A DNA stretch of 64,000 bases from an uncultured Schlesneria sp. (GTDB taxonomy: Bacteria > Planctomycetota > Planctomycetia > Planctomycetales > Planctomycetaceae): positions 1-64,000 of the forward strand of contig CAIOKO010000065.1 of assembly GCA_903858935.1 (NCBI GenBank). The letters are read 5' to 3'. Positions 4,033 to 42,860 of this stretch are shown in pieces. The position numbers and the translations under genes were made by a program. Below the pieces are notes generated by a model, which had not been told where the DNA came from, did no database searches, and saw only the letters and a list, made by a program, of their open reading frames with translations. Numbering within the stretch: the stretch's first letter is position 1; the number at the start of each line of letters is the position of its first letter.

Positions 4033-4101
4033 GGAGTCTTCGCCTGGGTCGTGCGAAATGGAATACGCTGCGCTAGATCGCACGGCTTTGTCGAAGACTC
4101 C
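4033..4101. repeat. nested inverted repeat (cruciform-like), possible degenerate copy of the dispersed hairpin element
   Basis: GGAGTCTTCG at 4033-4042 is the exact reverse complement of CGAAGACTCC at 4092-4101. Inside it, CGTGCGA (4050-4056) pairs exactly with TCGCACG (4078-4084). The GAAGACTCC arm resembles the core of the dispersed element at 10917-10948, and GTGCCAC lies just upstream at about 4020-4026. It sits in the 750-base spacer between the divergent sigma-factor and desaturase genes. Confidence 0.6.
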
Positions 4102-4121
4102 AGCGAGGGCTTCGCCTCAGA

Positions 4122-4282
4122 CCAAAGTCGCCATCGTCGCTCCGCATGATGAGCATTGTTCGAGAACCTGCCAAATTCCAATCAGCATGTTTTCAAAACG
4201 AAATATCTGTCCCGATGTGTCGGCAACGTTTGAATCGTTTCCGACGCATGCTCATCACGCGGAGCGATGATGGCTACTTTGG
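4122..4282. repeat. 35-bp inverted repeat with 91-bp spacer
   Basis: The arm 4122-4156 (begins CCAAAGTCGCCATC) is the reverse complement of 4248-4282 (ends GATGGCTACTTTGG) with 3 mismatches in 35 positions. The 91 bases between the arms hold no gene. The arrangement resembles the ends of a small non-autonomous element or a long cruciform. No target-site duplication was confirmed. Confidence 0.7.
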
Positions 4283-4291
4283 AAAAAACCC

Positions 4292-4320
4292 TGAAACTTG
4301 ACTCAATGAGTCAAGTTTCA
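4292..4320. repeat. perfect 13-bp hairpin with 3-nt loop
   Basis: TGAAACTTGACTC (4292-4304) is exactly complementary to GAGTCAAGTTTCA (4308-4320), with loop AAT. No U-run follows, so it is not a standard intrinsic terminator. It could be an operator for a dimeric regulator or part of the surrounding palindromic element. Confidence 0.65.
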
Positions 4321-4380
4321 TACCTGAAGAAGTCCAAAACCGTGCCACCCCGGTTTGAGCCAATAATCCGCAATCAGCCG

Positions 4381-9334: not shown

Positions 9335-10825
9335 ATGCGAATCGCCACCGGTGGAATCTCTCATGAAACAAGCTCGTTTTCGAGAGTACCAACAACGATA
9401 GCCGACTTCGAATCTGGGTTCGGTCTTTATCGAGGCTCAGAACTGATTGAACGATTTACCAATTCGAACATCTGCACGGGTGGATTCATCGATGGTGCGA
9501 AGGCGTACGGCTTTGAGCTTTTACCGCTGCTCTGGGGGTTCGCCTATCCCAGTGGTTTGATCGTGAAAGAGGATTACGAAACCCTCAAGCAGGAATTTAT
9601 TAATCGACTGAGGAAGGTGGAATTAGACGGCGGCCCCGTGGATGGAGTTCTGCTTGACCTTCATGGCGCGATGGTCATTGAAGGGATCGATGATGGCGAC
9701 GGTGATTTCATTGAGTCAATCCGAAACGTCGTCGGGCCAGATATCCCGATCATCGTGACGTTTGACCTTCACGCTAACCACACCCAGCGACGCGTCGATG
9801 CGGCAACCGCTATCGTTGGTTTTGACACGTTTCCTCACGTCGATATGAATGAACGTGGTCGCGAGGCGGCTGACTTGATCGTGCGGACGATTCGAGGCGA
9901 AATCCGACCGGTCATGTGGCTGCATCAATTGCCGTTATTCTGGAACACTCCGACTCAAGTCACGACGATCGCTCCGATGAACGAAGTGATGCAACGCGTC
10001 CATGAACTTGAGGCTCGACCTGGGATCTTGTCCGTCACTCTGGCGACCGGGTTTCCATGGTCTGATGTCCCCGATGTCGGAGCCAGTGTCACTGTCGTCG
10101 CAGACGGAAACGAAAGTCTCGCCAGGTCGACCGCAGAGGAATTGTCTTCATGGATCTGGGAAAATCGTGAACGCTGGTATTGTCCGCCGCTCGCTGTTCG
10201 CGACGCCATTCACCAGGGTGAGGCGATTGGACGTTATCCGATTGTCCTTGCCGATCATGCAGACAACACGGGCGGAGGTTCGCCGGGGGATTCGACGGAG
10301 ATCTTACGAACGTTTATTGAACTGGGACTTGGCGATTCCCTGATTCTTTACATCGTCGATCCCGAAGTCGCCCAGCAGGCTCATGCGGCAGGGGTTGGTC
10401 AATTCATCAATGTGACCGTTGGTGGAAAGTCTGATCCCATTCAAGGTCCTCCCGTCATGATGAATGCAGAAGTCATGGCAATCTCGAACGGCGATTTCAC
10501 ATATGACGGCCCCATGTATGCCGGACTGACCGGCAACATGGGTTGTTCAGCCTGGCTTAAACAGAACGGCGTATCCGTCGTCGTTGTGACCGCTCATGAA
10601 CAGCCGTTGGGACCTGCGTTTGCCAGGTCCCTTGGAATCGACTGTCCGTCAATGAAGTATATTGCCGTAAAGTCCGCCGCTCACTTTCGGGCGAGCTTCG
10701 AACGATTTGCGGGATCGATTTTCAATGTCGATGCCGAGGCGATCCACACTCACGATTTTAAGAAGCTTCCGTATCAGAAACGGACTCGTGCCGTTTTCCC
10801 AATCGAATTTCCTCCGAGATCGTAG
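9335..10825 (+). CDS. M81 family metallopeptidase (MlrC-like)
   Basis: A 496-residue protein that aligns by eye with the MlrC family along its whole length. The N-terminus (GGISHETSSFS), LDLHGAMV, VTFDLHANHT and GFDTFPHVDMNERG carry the predicted metal-binding His and Asp residues. ADHADNTGGGSPGDSTE is the family signature at the start of the C-terminal domain. MlrC cleaves linear microcystin-derived peptides in Sphingomonas, but most homologues lie in genomes without microcystin degradation and their substrates are unknown. The gene follows the esterase closely and ends a plus-strand run. Confidence 0.88.
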   Translation: MRIATGGISHETSSFSRVPTTIADFESGFGLYRGSELIERFTNSNICTGGFIDGAKAYGFELLPLLWGFAYPSGLIVKEDYETLKQEFINRLRKVELDGGPVDGVLLDLHGAMVIEGIDDGDGDFIESIRNVVGPDIPIIVTFDLHANHTQRRVDAATAIVGFDTFPHVDMNERGREAADLIVRTIRGEIRPVMWLHQLPLFWNTPTQVTTIAPMNEVMQRVHELEARPGILSVTLATGFPWSDVPDVGASVTVVADGNESLARSTAEELSSWIWENRERWYCPPLAVRDAIHQGEAIGRYPIVLADHADNTGGGSPGDSTEILRTFIELGLGDSLILYIVDPEVAQQAHAAGVGQFINVTVGGKSDPIQGPPVMMNAEVMAISNGDFTYDGPMYAGLTGNMGCSAWLKQNGVSVVVVTAHEQPLGPAFARSLGIDCPSMKYIAVKSAAHFRASFERFAGSIFNVDAEAIHTHDFKKLPYQKRTRAVFPIEFPPRS

Positions 10826-10829
10826 TGCC

Positions 10830-10974
10830 TTGTCAAAACTAAAAGGTTCGGGTGCCACTGGATGACCGTCTTCGGTCACCCAGTGCTCTTCGGCTGCCTC
10901 GAAAAAAGGGAAAAGACTGCGTCTCCGAAGACTCCGATGCAGTGGCACACGACCCGAACTTTAAGTCTTGACAA
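10830..10974. repeat. dispersed hairpin element copy 1, between convergent genes
   Basis: This is an almost continuous set of nested arms. TTGTCAA (10830-10836) pairs with 10968-10974. GTTCGGGT (10846-10853) pairs with 10952-10959. GTGCCACTG (10852-10860) pairs with CAGTGGCAC (10940-10948). Inside, CACTGGATGACCG pairs with CGGTCACCCAGTG with one mismatch and loop TCTT. The 32-base core CTGCGTCTCC...TGGCAC at 10917-10948 recurs at 33262-33293 and 41641-41672. It lies between the ends of two convergent genes, so it may also act as a bidirectional terminator. Confidence 0.7.
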
Positions 10975-11013
10975 CGCCGTAGGACAACAGCGCCAGCTCA
11001 AGGTGGGCGTTTG

Positions 11014-11871
11014 TCAAAGTACCTTCACGGCCTTGCCGAGTCGTCCCACAAAGTCGACGAAAATCAAATCTTTTTCCGAGATGGATCTGATCGTGAAAGG
11101 CAAGTTGTGATTGATGCGGTCAGGGTGAACCGAGGCGGTACAAAGGAAGTTGACGGTCCCGTTTTTGACAGACCAATTGCCACTCGAAACCGGCGTCTGG
11201 ACGAACATTTTCTTGAATAAGCGCATTTCTTGCACTTCACGAATCGACGACCAGGTACTGTCACCATTCACTGTAATAATCAATGCTCCGGCGTCGTCTT
11301 TAAATCGCCAGGTGCCAGGCATCATCTTGGCAAGTTCAGCATCGGTCAGGATTTTGGCTGCGACAGAAGCGGGTGCAGGACTGGTTGCGGCAGCCGTCGG
11401 TTTTTCGGTAGCGGCATGATCGGGCTTTCGTTGCAGCACCATCAGCATGCGCTTCGATCCTTCCTTTGCCGAGAATTCCGTCGGTCGTGGGCCGTCTTCG
11501 GGATCAGACAAGCAGACAACCAGTCGTCCCTCATCAAATCGAAAAATTCCCACGGCCTCTTTTTTCTCACGCGTTACCATGTCAAAGCCTTTGGGATACT
11601 GCGTCGCATCAATGGCAAAAACCTTGGCGTGCTTTTTTCCATCTTGAGGTGAGACATACATGAGCGCGTTGTCGGCGATCTCGATATGCCCGCCAGAAGG
11701 AAGCCATTCGCGGATCGCGTCGTGAGGGATGACGTGACCGTTTTCAACGAGTTCTTTAACTTCCCAGCGGCCCTGAAACGGCTGCAGTTCCGGGTCCTTG
11801 TCTGCGGCATAAAGAAAAAGCGTTCCGAAGGCCAGCAGGCAAGGGAGGGCGAGCTTCAATCCACGTTTCAT
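11014..11871 (-). CDS. exported TIGR03067-like protein
   Basis: A protein of about 285 residues with a signal peptide (MKRGLKLALPCLLAFGTLFLYA). The segment starting PFQGRWEVKELVENG resembles the TIGR03067 domain common in planctomycetes. A Pro/Ala/Thr-rich linker at about residues 150-170 is followed by a second half with a similar opening (MMPGTWRFKDDAGALIITV), so the protein appears to hold two related beta-rich domains. No catalytic residues were recognised. ATG 11871 is chosen over the longer frame to 11910 because GGAG lies about eight bases upstream and the signal peptide then begins correctly. It follows a DUF1501 gene on the same strand. Confidence 0.78.
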   Translation of the reverse strand: MKRGLKLALPCLLAFGTLFLYAADKDPELQPFQGRWEVKELVENGHVIPHDAIREWLPSGGHIEIADNALMYVSPQDGKKHAKVFAIDATQYPKGFDMVTREKKEAVGIFRFDEGRLVVCLSDPEDGPRPTEFSAKEGSKRMLMVLQRKPDHAATEKPTAAATSPAPASVAAKILTDAELAKMMPGTWRFKDDAGALIITVNGDSTWSSIREVQEMRLFKKMFVQTPVSSGNWSVKNGTVNFLCTASVHPDRINHNLPFTIRSISEKDLIFVDFVGRLGKAVKVL

Positions 11872-11961
11872 ATCATTGACTCCGTTCGATAACTGGGGGA
11901 TCCGACCCAAACGTGACTTCGCAACATCCAGATCGCGAAGCCGATTTTCGCTGGAAGGATA

Positions 11962-16829: not shown

Positions 16830-16910
16830 ACCATTTCCACTGGAAATCCAGACACATCGAAATCCGTTTAATTGTAAGCATCGGAAGGGGGGCACCGGAA
16901 GTTCGATCTC

Positions 16911-16954
16911 GCAAAAGGGGACTGGCTCCGTCTTCGGTGCCTGTCCCCTTTTGC
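16911..16954. repeat. 20-bp imperfect hairpin of the GGTGCCTGTCCCC type
   Basis: GCAAAAGGGGACTGGCTCCG (16911-16930) pairs with CGGTGCCTGTCCCCTTTTGC (16935-16954) with two mismatches and loop TCTT. A partial direct copy of the right arm (CCGGTGCCTGTCCCCTTTTT) follows at about 16967-16986, and a related shorter hairpin lies at 23598-23623. It lies between the minus-strand cytochrome gene and the kinase gene. Confidence 0.7.
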
Positions 16955-17127
16955 GTCTTCGCGTCCCCGGTGCCTGTCCCCTTTTTCGAGTTCGGTGCCA
17001 GCCCCGTCAGCATTTCGGTCGAACGAGAGAAACGGCGCACATCCCCAGCCACCTAGACCTTGAATCGCTCTGCATTAAAGCCTTTGAAGGAAGCAATGGG
17101 ACAGCCCCGCATGGTCAAGATCCGGCG

Positions 17128-29948: not shown

Positions 29949-30165
29949 GCGAATGCACGTTTCGTACAAGGTAAGATTTAGCCAATCGCCTTGACCCCGA
30001 GTCATGCGTTGTGTGGGGCAACCCACTCATCGAAGCGTTGACAGGGGAATGACCAGGTTGTGTTTTGATCTCCGAAATCAGTTCTTTGCGAGGCTGACCT
30101 TGTTCTGTCAAGGTGAAGGCAACAGTGATGTCGAACGTAAAAGGCGAGTCGGACGTCACCTCCAC
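29949..30165. repeat. dispersed repeat, long copy A
   Basis: This stretch matches 31138-31355 along its full 217 or so bases with many scattered substitutions and small gaps. The best-conserved core is GCGAATGCACGTTTCGTACA at 29949-29968, continuing AGGTAAGA to 29976. Later shared blocks include GACCAGGTTGTGT, CTCCGAAATCAG and GGCGAGT. A short upstream part (CCATGGGGACAC near 29908) is shared with copy B instead. Confidence 0.75.
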
Positions 30166-30377
30166 GGAGTCCGGGACCACAGGCATGGTTGGAAACAATC
30201 CTCGCGGAAGCTGGGCGATCCCAGAAACATTCGACTCGTTGGAGGTTGAACGCCTAACCCGGATGGATCATTGCGGACCCCACGAAGCTCGTTCGAACGG
30301 ACACCTCGGCTGGAGTTGGGGGTAGGCGAATTTCGGCGTGGGCGAAACCATGCTGTACCCGGATTCATTTTTTGTTT

Positions 30378-30548: not shown

Positions 30549-30617
30549 CCATGGGGACACTGTGAGCCATCACAAGCCGGAGGACCGAAGCGAATGCAAG
30601 TTTCGTACAAGGTAAGA
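30549..30617. repeat. dispersed repeat, short copy B
   Basis: CCATGGGGACAC followed by AAGCCGGAGGA and the core GCGAATGCAAGTTTCGTACA (30590-30609), ending AGGTAAGA at 30617. The core matches copies A and C nearly base for base; similarity stops soon after. It lies upstream of the second antitoxin gene. Confidence 0.7.
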
Positions 30618-31137: not shown

Positions 31138-31355
31138 GCGAATGCAAGTTTCGTACAAGGTAAGATTGAGCCAATCGCCTTGGCTCCGAGTGATGCGTCT
31201 CGATGGGCAATTATCAGGGCGAAACGTTCACAGGGCAAAGACCAGGTTGTGTATAGAGCTCCGAAATCAGCTCTTTGCGAGACCGACCTTGTTGTGTCAA
31301 AGGGAAGACAATAGTGACGTTGAACGATAAAGGCGAGTTCGGCGTCGCCTACGGA
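31138..31355. repeat. dispersed repeat, long copy C
   Basis: The partner of copy A in the same orientation, beginning with GCGAATGCAAGTTTCGTACA at 31138-31157. The two long copies flank the second toxin-antitoxin locus and copy B. It ends about ten bases before the stop of the WD40 gene. It occupies most of the 31092-31362 gap, where no gene was found. Confidence 0.75.
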
Positions 31356-31362
31356 CGATTCC

Positions 31363-32385
31363 CTATTTGTTGACTGCTGGTGCCGTTTTTTTCTCTGTCG
31401 TCGCAGCATTCTTTTCGGTTTGCGCGGTCTTCGGTTTTGGTTTCGGGACGTTCCAGATCTTGACCAATTTATCCTCACCAGCTGTGGCGAGCGTCGAGTC
31501 GTCTGGTGCGAATGTGACATCGTTCAACCAATCGGAATGACCGTCGAGCGTCGCCACTTCGGCGTCCGTCGACAGGTCCCAGATTTTTACGGAACCATCG
31601 TCGCTGACCGTCGCCAATAGAGTTCCGTCGTTGGAAAAGGCGAGACCGCGAACCGGGCCGCCGTGGCCGCTGAGTGTCGCATCGTTTTCGCCGCTGGTGG
31701 TCTCCCAGATCTTGACCGTATCGTCATGACTGGCTGTGGCAATCAATGAGCTGTCGGGCGAAAACGCCAAGGCGTTCACGGTGTCGGTGTGACCTTTGAG
31801 TGTTCGAACAAGATGGTGCGTCGTTACGTTCCAGATTCGGACTAGATTATCTGAACTTCCTGACGCAAGTAATTTTCCGTCAGACGAGAAGGCCACTCCG
31901 TTCACCGAGTCGGTGTGTCCCTTGAGGGTCGTCACATTCTTACCGGTCTCGACATTCCACAGCTTCACCGTATCGTCATCACTGCCGGTTGCCAGCCACT
32001 TTCCATCGAAGCTGAATGCCACGCTGTTAACGGAATCAGTGTGACCCGTCAGTGTCAGCAGCAACTTTCCCCCTCCTGGTTCCCAGATTTTCGCCGAATG
32101 GTCGGCGCTCGCCGTCGCCATCCGGGTCCCGTCGAGCGAGTAGGTGACATCGAGTACCGAATCGGTGTGCCCTTTCAACGTCAATAAAAGTTCACCATTG
32201 GCCGGATCGACGATTTGCACGGTGTCATCGTCGCTGGCCGAAGCGAGGCCACTTCCGTCGGGTGCGAATTTCACCGCGTTGACGACATTTGTATGTCCGT
32301 GAATTGCCAGCTTTGCAATTTCAGCTTTCGGTTCAGTTCCGAAGATCGCCACGGACAATCCCATCAAACTGACCAGAGTGATCAT
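31363..32385 (-). CDS. exported WD40 repeat protein
   Basis: A 340-residue protein built of seven WD40 units of about 42 residues from residue 28 onwards. Each has the GH...V..V.FSPDG..LAS.S.D.TVKIW pattern, enough to close a seven-bladed propeller. The N-terminus (MITLVSLMGLSVAIFGTEP) looks like a short signal peptide or anchor. The last 30 residues are Lys/Thr/Ala-rich and probably disordered. Such propellers are protein-interaction scaffolds and no enzyme activity is expected. The repeats are highly similar to one another (for example GHTDSVNSVAFS and GHTDSVNGVAFS), which suggests recent internal duplication. Confidence 0.9.
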   Translation of the reverse strand: MITLVSLMGLSVAIFGTEPKAEIAKLAIHGHTNVVNAVKFAPDGSGLASASDDDTVQIVDPANGELLLTLKGHTDSVLDVTYSLDGTRMATASADHSAKIWEPGGGKLLLTLTGHTDSVNSVAFSFDGKWLATGSDDDTVKLWNVETGKNVTTLKGHTDSVNGVAFSSDGKLLASGSSDNLVRIWNVTTHHLVRTLKGHTDTVNALAFSPDSSLIATASHDDTVKIWETTSGENDATLSGHGGPVRGLAFSNDGTLLATVSDDGSVKIWDLSTDAEVATLDGHSDWLNDVTFAPDDSTLATAGEDKLVKIWNVPKPKPKTAQTEKNAATTEKKTAPAVNK

Positions 32386-33026: not shown

Positions 33027-33376
33027 GTCTGTTTCCCCGTAACCCCGGATCAATAGCAGGTTATCTCATTGAGAACCCCTCTGGACCCCACCCAGGTTCA
33101 AATCGCGGTCCCCACTTGATTATAAACCCGGTCCACAAGCGAAGTGTTCGGAGAATTTCGAACCTGCCGAAGAAGTAATGATTCGACGTCTTCTGATCAT
33201 TGGCCATCTGTACGATTCGTCAAGCAGTGCCGAGCGATACAAAGACGGCGATTTCAAGCCACTGCTTCTCCGAGGACTCCGAAGCAATGGCACATCGAGA
33301 TGGAAGCGAAATAAAGATCCTTCAACGCGTTGTGGCCTGTGGCGTCAGAAATTGAAAGATCGGTCGTATGAACGTG
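33027..33376. other. intergenic region with copy 2 of the dispersed hairpin element
   Basis: No gene was recognised. The conserved core CTGCTTCTCCGAGGACTCCG (33262-33281) through GCAC at 33293 is a near match to 10917-10948 and 41641-41672. Upstream, AAGCAGTGCC at about 33222-33231 may be part of the left hairpin, which is less well preserved than in the other copies. Confidence 0.6.
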
Positions 33377-40563: not shown

Positions 40564-40704
40564 ATGGCTCCTCGTAACACTGATAATACTCCAGCACCCG
40601 ACGTCTATGTTGCGTTGCTGTCTGTCTCGCTCGCCGCACTGATCATGGGCGTTGTGATGCTCGTGCTGGAACTCAACAAATACGGTTGGAAAATGGCTCC
40701 TTGA
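40564..40704 (+). CDS. 46-residue membrane protein, cluster gene 3
   Basis: ATG 40564 opens a 46-codon frame (begins MAPRNTDNTPAPDVYVALLS) with one hydrophobic helix, about residues 13-35 (VYVALLSVSLAALIMGVVML), flanked by a polar N-terminus and a charged end (ELNKYGWKMAP). The frame fills the gap between the two larger genes and its stop overlaps the longest frame of the next gene. Size, single helix and position suggest a small subunit of a membrane assembly made by this cluster. Confidence 0.6.
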   Translation: MAPRNTDNTPAPDVYVALLSVSLAALIMGVVMLVLELNKYGWKMAP

Positions 40705-40730
40705 GGCAGCGCCTCGAAGGAAAAGTCGGT

Positions 40731-41546
40731 ATGTGGATGCTGGCGCAGGTTTCCGAGACTCCCATTCATCAAAATGATCCGACCGGTTCGGGGATTTTCT
40801 GGATCTTTGAAATCATCCTGTCGCTGTTATCTGCTCCCTATTTCCTCTTTTGGATCTGGATGCTGTTTCACTGTTATCGGACGGAACCCGATCGTCAGTT
40901 CTGGATCTGGATCCTGATCATCGCTCAGCCGATTGGTGCGTTCGCCTATTTTGTATTGCGATACTTGCCAACGAAGGAATTTCCCACTCCTCCATTTCTT
41001 CGAAAGTGGACTCGCCGACGGGAATTGACGCGGCTTGAAACTGCGGCCCAACAGATTGGCAATCCCCATCAATTTATTCAGTGGGGGAACGCATTACGCG
41101 AAGTCGGCCTGCTTGAGCAAGCCGACCAGGCTTACGTTCAGGCACTAAAAAAGGACTCGCAGAATATCCAGGCGCTTTGGGGGGCTGCTCAAGTGGCGGC
41201 CAGTCAGAAGCGTTATTCCGAGCTTTGCACTTTGACGCGTCAGGTTCTTGACGAAGATCCGCAGTACAAATTTGGAGACGTTTCACTGCTTCATGGTCGT
41301 GCGTTGAAGGAGATTGGAGAGGTCGATGCCGCTCGAAACCATCTTGAGCAGCACGTGAAGCGATGGCGGCACCCTGAAGCGTTGTTCCTGCTGGCTGAAA
41401 TGTACGCAGTTCAAGGCAAAAGGAAGGAGGCCCGCGACAATCTTCTCGCCCTGATCCAGGATATCAACGGTAGCCCGATCGGGATCGCTCGCAGGCACGG
41501 TCGATGGAAAAGCCGTGCGAAACAGCTTTTGCGGAAAATCGGTTGA
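40731..41546 (+). CDS. membrane protein with C-terminal TPR repeats, cluster gene 4
   Basis: About 271 residues. Two hydrophobic segments (about 24-46 and 57-77, with FWIWMLFHCYRTEPDRQFWIW between them) resemble a PLDc_N-type membrane hairpin. A Lys/Arg-rich cytoplasmic stretch follows, then about four TPR-like helix pairs (FIQWGNALREVGLLEQADQA, YVQALKKDSQNIQALWGAAQ and onwards). ATG 40731 is preferred because AAGGAAAAG lies just upstream; a TTG at 40686 in the same frame overlaps the small gene. It probably completes a four-gene transcription unit. Confidence 0.75.
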   Translation: MWMLAQVSETPIHQNDPTGSGIFWIFEIILSLLSAPYFLFWIWMLFHCYRTEPDRQFWIWILIIAQPIGAFAYFVLRYLPTKEFPTPPFLRKWTRRRELTRLETAAQQIGNPHQFIQWGNALREVGLLEQADQAYVQALKKDSQNIQALWGAAQVAASQKRYSELCTLTRQVLDEDPQYKFGDVSLLHGRALKEIGEVDAARNHLEQHVKRWRHPEALFLLAEMYAVQGKRKEARDNLLALIQDINGSPIGIARRHGRWKSRAKQLLRKIG

Positions 41547-41584
41547 GTGCCGGGTGTGACGTCAGTTTTCTGGGTTCATGTGCT

Positions 41585-41672
41585 ACAGCTTGACCGCCTT
41601 CAGTCAAGCTGTGTTTTTGGGCCGTCAGATGTCGAAGGCACTGCTTCTCGAAGGACTCCAAAGCAGCGGCAC
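41585..41672. repeat. dispersed hairpin element copy 3
   Basis: ACAGCTTGAC (41585-41594) is the exact reverse complement of GTCAAGCTGT (41603-41612), forming the left hairpin. The right core at 41641-41672 (CTGCTTCTCGAAGGACTCCA ... GCGGCAC) matches 10917-10948 and 33262-33293. Within it CTGCTT pairs with AAGCAG. It lies between convergent gene ends (41546 and 41742), like copy 1. Confidence 0.7.
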
Positions 41673-41741
41673 AAAAGCCAAAAGTTGGTGCCTGGCAGAG
41701 GTATCCCCGTGTTGTGAGGTTTCATCCAAGCCGCACGTTAA

Positions 41742-42860
41742 TCATTTGATCCGATGCTTTTCGATCACATCACGATCAACTTCAATTCCGAGTCCTGGTC
41801 CAGAATTACTGGTCGTTAACGGACCATCGATCAAAAGTGGATTTTTCGCGATCGACACCTCATGGTAGTCGGGGCCCAGCAAATCGCCTGGATAACGTTC
41901 GACCTGCATGTTCGGCGTCGCGATGATGAAGTGAGCCATTGCCGCCGTGCCAATGTCCCATTCCAGATTCGAGCCGATGGAACACGCGATTCCATGTTGC
42001 TCTGCTAACATCGCGATCTCGGTGGCTTTGCGAATGCCACCATTTTTGCCGGGATAAAGACTGATCGCATCACAACATTCGTGGCGGATCAGCTCTTGAG
42101 CATGCACCAGGTCGAAGCAGCTTTCATCGGCGAGAATCTTCGCGTTTGTTTCTTTTCGCACTCGTGCAAGTCCGGTGTAATCGCCGGGAGGAATGGGCTG
42201 CTCGACAATGTCCAGGTGGCATTCTTCCAATTCTAGTATCGATCGAATTGCGGTATCAACATCCCAACCTCCATTGGCATCGATTGTCAGGGCGATCTCA
42301 GGACCGATCACATCGCGAACGATGCGCACCCGCTCGATATCGCGAACGGGATCGATACCGACTTTCACTTTGATGGTTGTGAACCCTGCGGCGACCAGTT
42401 CAGTTGCCCGACGTCGAGCCCGTTCGGGTTCATACGCTCCCAATGAAAAGCGACTGCGGATCGTCAGGGGCCGACATGCGCCTCCCAAAAGTTCGAAGAC
42501 CGGCTTTCCGCTGGATTTACCTTGAATATCCCAGCATGCCATTTCGATCGCCGATTTGGCGAACCAGTTACCCACAGCGACGGCGTCCATGCGGCGATCG
42601 AGTTCCGCTAGATCGTCTGCGGCACATCCCATCACGGCGGGACCAAGCACGCCGTTGACCATCGCTTCTGCTCCGCGACAGGTTTCGCCGCTCCAGCGGG
42701 GGGTCACCGTGGCCTCGCCCCAGCCTTCGTATCCATCGTCGGTTTCGAGGTGAACCAGCAGAAAGTCGGAGACATCATGACTTCCGAGTGCCGAAATCAT
42801 GCGTCGCTCGGGTTTGAGGGAAATCCTTACGGGAATGCTTTCGACGCGGATGATTTTCAT
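41742..42860 (-). CDS. enolase-superfamily enzyme (mandelate racemase/muconate lactonising group)
   Basis: A 372-residue protein with the N-terminal capping domain (residues about 1-120; HDVSDFLLVHLETDDGYEGWGEA) and a barrel domain. The KxK pair lies in TTIKVKVGID, the first metal ligand Asp in TIDANGGWD, the second in DIVEQPI and the third in ILADESCFD. SIGSNLEWDIGTAAMAH near the end supplies the C-terminal part. This is the muconate cycloisomerase/dipeptide-epimerase subgroup, which includes acid-sugar dehydratases and N-succinylamino-acid racemases. The substrate is not determined. Confidence 0.87.
   Translation of the reverse strand: MKIIRVESIPVRISLKPERRMISALGSHDVSDFLLVHLETDDGYEGWGEATVTPRWSGETCRGAEAMVNGVLGPAVMGCAADDLAELDRRMDAVAVGNWFAKSAIEMACWDIQGKSSGKPVFELLGGACRPLTIRSRFSLGAYEPERARRRATELVAAGFTTIKVKVGIDPVRDIERVRIVRDVIGPEIALTIDANGGWDVDTAIRSILELEECHLDIVEQPIPPGDYTGLARVRKETNAKILADESCFDLVHAQELIRHECCDAISLYPGKNGGIRKATEIAMLAEQHGIACSIGSNLEWDIGTAAMAHFIIATPNMQVERYPGDLLGPDYHEVSIAKNPLLIDGPLTTSNSGPGLGIEVDRDVIEKHRIK

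Follow-up and report, generated by a model that had tools for sequence, protein, structure and literature searches.

Between the convergent open reading frames (ORFs) at 9335-10825 (plus strand) and 11014-11910 (minus strand) of the window, the 64,000-nt stretch of Schlesneria DNA analysed here, lies a short element containing two hairpins (copy 1), and a related pair (copy 3) likewise lies between convergent ORF ends, at 40686-41546 (plus strand) and 41742-42860 (minus strand), as the sequence-only reading had described. That reading had also recognised a 32-base core recurring at 10917-10948, 33262-33293 and 41641-41672, with a second hairpin in front of it in copies 1 and 3, and these sequences are indeed present there. 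A covariance model (R1) built from 70 distinct genomic units, the left unit of copy 1 among them, gave five convincing units in the window, at 10852-10885, 10915-10948, 33260-33293, 41580-41613 and 41639-41672. Both parts of the layout proposed earlier exist, but they belong to one inverted pair, in which the core forms the right unit and the second hairpin the left, each with an outer GTGC. The features are as follows.

4105-4332 (approximate), plus strand: segment similar to the inside of an element type of greater length (~400 bp); the orthologous site of the relative G001 lacks it
10823-10824, no strand: TA at the left edge of copy 1, candidate target-site duplication; copies share ...C/TA/GTGC
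10825-10851, plus strand: left terminal inverted repeat (TIR) of the putative 155-bp composite (GTGCCTTGTCAAAACTAAAAGGTTCGG); the consensus TIR agrees with IS630-family ends at 21-25 of 31 nt
10852-10885, plus strand: left REP unit of copy 1 (L type), with GTGC foot, 13-bp stem and TCTT loop; model E 2.6e-17, covariation
10886-10914, no strand: spacer between the copy 1 units
10915-10948, minus strand: right REP unit of copy 1 (R type), inverted; model E 1.3e-11
10949-10979, plus strand: right TIR of the putative 155-bp composite; shared similarity edges
10980-10981, no strand: TA at the right edge of copy 1; copies share GCAC/TA/G
33210-33233, plus strand: remnant of the copy 2 left unit, 14 nt deleted; alignment to the orthologous sites of G001 and G004
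33260-33293, minus strand: right REP unit of copy 2; model E 1.1e-11
41580-41613, plus strand: left REP unit of copy 3; model E 3.1e-7
41639-41672, minus strand: right REP unit of copy 3; model E 5.2e-9

The earlier reading described a second hairpin for copies 1 and 3; copy 2 had a left hairpin too, which the G001 and G004 orthologues keep and from which the window's copy has lost 14 nt. Copy 3 (41580-41672) is a pair without further layers: its similarity edges are at about 41579-41674, and no TIR was seen beyond the pair. The weaker relative suspected at 4033-4101 gave no match to the unit covariance model; the segment at 4105-4332 begins a few bases downstream of it. At the left edge of copy 1, the TA is part of the TAG stop codon of the ORF at 9335-10825; the first G of the element completes this stop, and insertion of the IS630 type at CTAG may favour stop codons.

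Each unit consists of 34 nt, with an unpaired 5' GTGC foot of 4 nt, a 13-bp stem and a 4-nt loop. Two unlike units, L and R, face each other inverted over about 95 bp with the GTGC feet outermost; copy 1 reads GTGCCACTGGATGACCG-TCTT-CGGTCACCCAGTG, then the spacer, then the reverse complement of GTGCCACTGCATCGGAG-TCTT-CGGAGACGCAGTC. Among the loci fetched from the genus, 147 of the 209 distinct units have an inverted partner, ending mostly 50-65 nt downstream, and L/R heterodimers make up 85 of the 97 pairs in which both units could be typed. The GTGC foot occurs in most copies, and in the 70-unit alignment it was fixed by the search pattern; in G002 and G006, the foot varies (ATGC, GTGG). The inner arm of the R unit comes in two forms, paired (CGGAG-TCTT-CTCCG) and unpaired (CGGAG-TCTT-CGGAG), the arm being CTCCG in one and its reverse complement CGGAG in the other, for example in window 10915-10948 versus 10386-10419 of locus L307; it looks as if the arm had been flipped or had recombined with the L unit.

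The hairpins are kept by compensatory changes. In the 70 distinct units, we counted 53 double-sided stem changes versus 15.9 in shuffles, a count of sequences rather than events, and 88% of cells were paired versus 24-49% when the partner was slid. Since the outermost nine and five bases were preset by the search pattern, the evidence for covariation comes from the inner eight pairs. Two subfamilies alone could produce false covariation, and the count was therefore repeated on the 52 L-type units, which gave 26 double-sided changes versus 6.8, with 91% of cells paired and none of 500 shuffles as high. Base-pair covariation in the stem thus exceeds chance. Rfam held no gathering-level match to the element, the best at copy 1 having an E-value of 0.77, which is far below gathering.

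The element is by no means confined to the three copies noticed first. The pattern GTGCCACTG-N14-30-CAGTG has 100 exact sites in the window's genome (G000; 7.93 Mb in 280 contigs) versus one for the reversed pattern, which excludes chance. With copy 1 as query, blastn returned at least 47 matches in this genome, and the covariance model found at least 150 units, nearly all with E < 1e-4. Across 15 genomes of the genus Schlesneria, the number of exact units ranged from 0 to 564 (564 in G005, 308 in G001, 195 in G004, and 100 in G000), and genomes outside the genus were at background, save for a few units in G015. When 36 elements were placed relative to genes by a rough ORF-based method, 28 were intergenic, 5 lay inside ORFs, and 3 lay at locus edges; the intergenic ones stood between tandem genes in 15 cases, convergent genes in 10, and divergent genes in 3, as counted by the same rough method, mostly downstream of genes. 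The genome-wide search yielded many dispersed, mostly intergenic copies, and, with the covariation of the stems, neither of the two outcomes that the earlier reading had named as refuting it came about.

Copies differ between species. Pairs form tandem arrays with a period of about 120-132 bp in G001 and G005. At the site of copy 3, G001 has three copies in tandem, whereas G000 and G005 have a single one; G004 lacks the element together with the surrounding intergenic DNA. A site at about 67.9 kb on the window's contig has an element in G004 and G001 and none in G000. Among the sites compared, none was a clean empty site from which a target duplication could be read, and the neighbouring intergenic DNA has diverged. 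The dispersed intergenic copies, their sharp edges, the presence and absence between species and the covariation support the earlier suggestion of a mobile or selected structured element.

Copy 1 extends further than was first marked. When window positions 10000-11800 were compared with the genus by blastn, dozens of copies shared sharp edges at about 10823 and 10977, which gives a 155-bp element (10825-10979) with TIRs. The aligned edges of the copies read C/TA/GTGCGTTGTCAA...TTGACAACGCAC/TA/G, and in many copies the TA lies within CTAG at both edges. A multicopy insertion sequence (IS) of G000, broken at contig ends, has the ends CTAGTGCTTTGTCACA, and the N- and C-termini of its ORF resemble the IS630-type transposase of locus L208, an IS with the same kind of ends and with ORFs that carry HTH and DDE_3 domains. 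The ends of the 155-bp element agree with those of the G000 and L208 IS at 21-25 of 31 positions, a partial similarity and not an identity, and at locus L179 of G002 both hairpins lie inside ends that match the G000 IS at 25-26 of 31. The Pfam family DDE_3 gave no match in G000, which is most likely explained by the breaks at contig ends that interrupt the IS copies of this genome. From these similarities, copy 1 appears to be a 155-bp IS630-type MITE that encloses a REPIN and shares its TIRs with an IS of the IS630 family. Scored with gaps, an IS630-like TIR was detectable at about 40% of the G000 units versus 5% of control flanks; this is the figure quoted throughout, an ungapped score having given about 11%, and all these TIR and association statistics are simple scores on a set that is partly biased, as some loci were picked by similarity to copy 1. 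The combination of TIR and hairpin is also present in G002, G006, and perhaps G027, and when the collection was scanned for the TIR-plus-unit pattern, the five matching places all belonged to one uncultured Schlesneria MAG. Elements of a longer type (~400 bp) were seen at five further loci (L172, L173, L175, L176, and L178); their ends are like those of IS630, they contain one or two of the hairpins, and they have a common interior (CAGACCAAAGTAGCCATCATCGCTCCGCGTGATGAGCATTG and its inverse).

In contig 2 of G001, five near-identical pairs flank a gene for a protein of 212 amino acids (L307:10684-11319), with two REPINs upstream and three downstream. The protein matches the NCBIfam equivalog for REP-associated tyrosine transposase (RAYT; NF047646) at 85.9 bits, the cut-off being 80, among solved structures TnpArep 4er8 matches it best, and it has the HuH motif PEHVH and the Y motif YIHQNP. 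It was not among the listed matches to Pfam Y1_Tnp (PF01797), because that model scores it at 18.8 bits, below the cut-off. This locus has the layout of a REPtron. It is a single case, met after the genes beside about 15 arrays had been inspected, for which we put the chance probability at about 2% as an order-of-magnitude estimate. None of the five pairs has a TIR, and the REPIN thus exists without the IS630 layer. No second RAYT was found beside the arrays fetched from G000, G001, G004, and G005, and the RAYT-like genes of G000 (L037-L039) are not flanked by the units with the GTGC foot. Among the listed matches to PF01797, a model whose cut-off even the G001 protein does not reach, G000 gave no matching RAYT. 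The RAYT gene lies between REPIN arrays, in a part of the G001 contig (L307 3649-13889) that gave no alignment to the window's contig and that also encodes a 916-aa protein with a DNA methylase domain and a 715-aa protein with a UvrD-helicase domain. Units were also found directly upstream of two IS200-like tnpA genes of G000 (L034 and L035) and of their orthologues in G004 and G001. The TnpA proteins of L034 and L035 have a Y---Q--HH motif like that of subclass 1.2 in PMC6006769, which is reported there mostly from Cyanobacteria and Bacteroidetes.

Taken together, the element is probably a REP/REPIN (BIME-like) family that is, or formerly was, moved by a RAYT, with copy 1 also lying inside ends of the IS630 type. 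Such an outcome supports the earlier wording of a mobile or selected element and at the same time completes it, since the unit is a REP, the pair is a REPIN or BIME, a RAYT in G001 is flanked by the pairs, and copy 1 is also a putative IS630-type MITE. One may ask whether all copies could instead be a single IS630-type MITE with two interior hairpins, of which the copies without TIR are decayed and in which no tyrosine transposase takes part. The TIRs at about 40% of the G000 units versus the 5% background, the weak matching bases that units scored as TIR-less keep at -10, -4, and -1, and the occurrence of TIR plus hairpin in G002, G006, and perhaps G027 would all fit. However, the five near-identical pairs around the RAYT gene have no TIR, copies of the copy 3 type have common edges of their own (GTGC...GCAC), the repeating part of the tandem arrays is the hairpin pair, and neutral decay would not erase the TIRs yet leave compensatory changes in the hairpins, and we therefore consider this explanation unlikely.

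Movement of the pairs by the IS200-like TnpA (Y---Q--HH, like subclass 1.2) rather than by a RAYT is suggested by the units directly upstream of L034, L035, and their G004 and G001 orthologues, but these amount to two independent cases among 52 Y1 loci, where about one would be expected by chance at such a copy density (an order-of-magnitude estimate), and other members of the same tnpA families have no elements. The association is too weak, and we rejected this transposase as the mobiliser; that it moved the pairs is quite improbable. Also very improbable, in our view, is selection of the hairpins chiefly for a role as gene-end RNA signals, as terminators or mRNA stabilisers, with their dispersal being incidental. 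The placement (15 tandem, 10 convergent, and 3 divergent by the rough ORF method) and the stems kept by compensation would agree with such a role, but intrinsic terminator prediction found none at copy 1, genomes of this single genus carry anything between no copies and hundreds, and REPs elsewhere have the same location bias relative to genes (PMC3733652). A role as RNA signal is, moreover, compatible with the REP/REPIN explanation, and the two do not exclude each other.

Under the REP/REPIN explanation, each REP would be a 34-nt single-strand hairpin with its unpaired 5' GTGC foot, and an inverted L and R together would form the REPIN, a BIME-like dimer. The RAYT (HuH/Y1) would recognise foot and hairpin in single-stranded DNA, cut and rejoin it, most likely at replication. 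Recognition of REPs in single-stranded DNA is established for TnpA-REP (PMC6006769 and references there), and we suggest recognition of the REPIN by a HuH transposase since the anatomy fits. In some lineages of the genus, the REPIN may then have come between the ends of an IS630-family transposon, whose transposase could, in trans, move the 155-bp composite with the REPIN inside at TA/CTAG sites; for copy 1, the similarity of the ends and the TA edges point to this route. We thus infer that a RAYT moves, or has moved, the REPs and that an IS630 transposase moves composites, and the order of events proposed here has the same standing. A more far-reaching and distinctly tentative idea, which we think may well be wrong, is that the composite is a true two-system element, in which the REPIN spreads via HuH on single strands inside IS630 ends that spread via DDE on double strands, each spreading the substrate of the other. 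If true, the repeated combinations in several species would reflect a recurring partnership and not an accident.

The family resembles the REP/REPIN (BIME)-RAYT systems (REPtrons) of E. coli and Pseudomonas in its short hairpins with a probable unpaired 5' tetranucleotide foot, its inverted dimers with the feet outside, its hundreds of mostly intergenic copies, tandem arrays, and species-specific abundance, and in a RAYT gene with the same REPs on both sides, here in G001. Unlike canonical REPs, which have a GT[AG]G foot, it has the foot GTGC, a 13-bp stem, and a near-obligate L/R heterodimer, and in the one sequence read, the residues after the WQ motif of the G001 RAYT differ from the guide-reading set of E. 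coli in PMC6006769. By motifs alone, this RAYT can be likened to TnpA-Y1 subclass 2.6 of the same study, with its Y motif YIH[QN]NP and 'atypical' flanking structures, although its HuH motif is EHVH and not NH[LIV]H. TnpA-Y1 class 3, which occurs mainly in Planctomycetes, Acidobacteria, and Proteobacteria, differs from the G001 RAYT and its REPs in having another Y motif and a CnGA foot (PMC6006769). REP dimers inside longer palindromes have been described as GTAG-15 in A. variabilis and CGTC-1 in H. neapolitanus, which carry no transposon assignment in the portion of PMC3733652 drawn on here, whereas the outer palindrome of our element is assignable to the ends of an IS630-family transposon, with edges at TA/CTAG. 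Correia elements and RUP have been named as IS630-derived MITEs (PMC2817692). Like these, copy 1 is short and non-autonomous, has TIRs shared with an IS630-family IS, and has TA at both edges, but its interior is a REPIN, with a transposase type of its own in the relative G001. With its identified IS630 ends, GTGC foot, and near-obligate heterodimer, the family is a variant of REP/REPIN and not a new kind of element.

With these findings, the range of REP/REPIN-RAYT systems would come to include a genus of planctomycetes, in which the GTGC foot is unusual and the heterodimer form nearly strict. Its species, whose exact copies number from 0 to 564, form a natural series for asking what drives the gain and loss of REPINs. 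The REPIN within IS630-type ends would illustrate concretely that two unrelated transposition systems can combine, and it offers a possible origin for the palindromes around REP dimers that were reported earlier with no assigned source.

The window contains other repeats. Two matches to group II intron D1-D4-6 (Rfam RF02005), at 29956-30179 and 31145-31364 with 134.6 and 106.7 bits, lie 1.2 kb apart, and a further partial copy of their flanking sequence is present at 30549-30617. Another small repeat family occupies 16891-16994, with tandem 33-nt repeats containing GGTGCCTGTCCCCTTTT and an inverted copy adjoining them.
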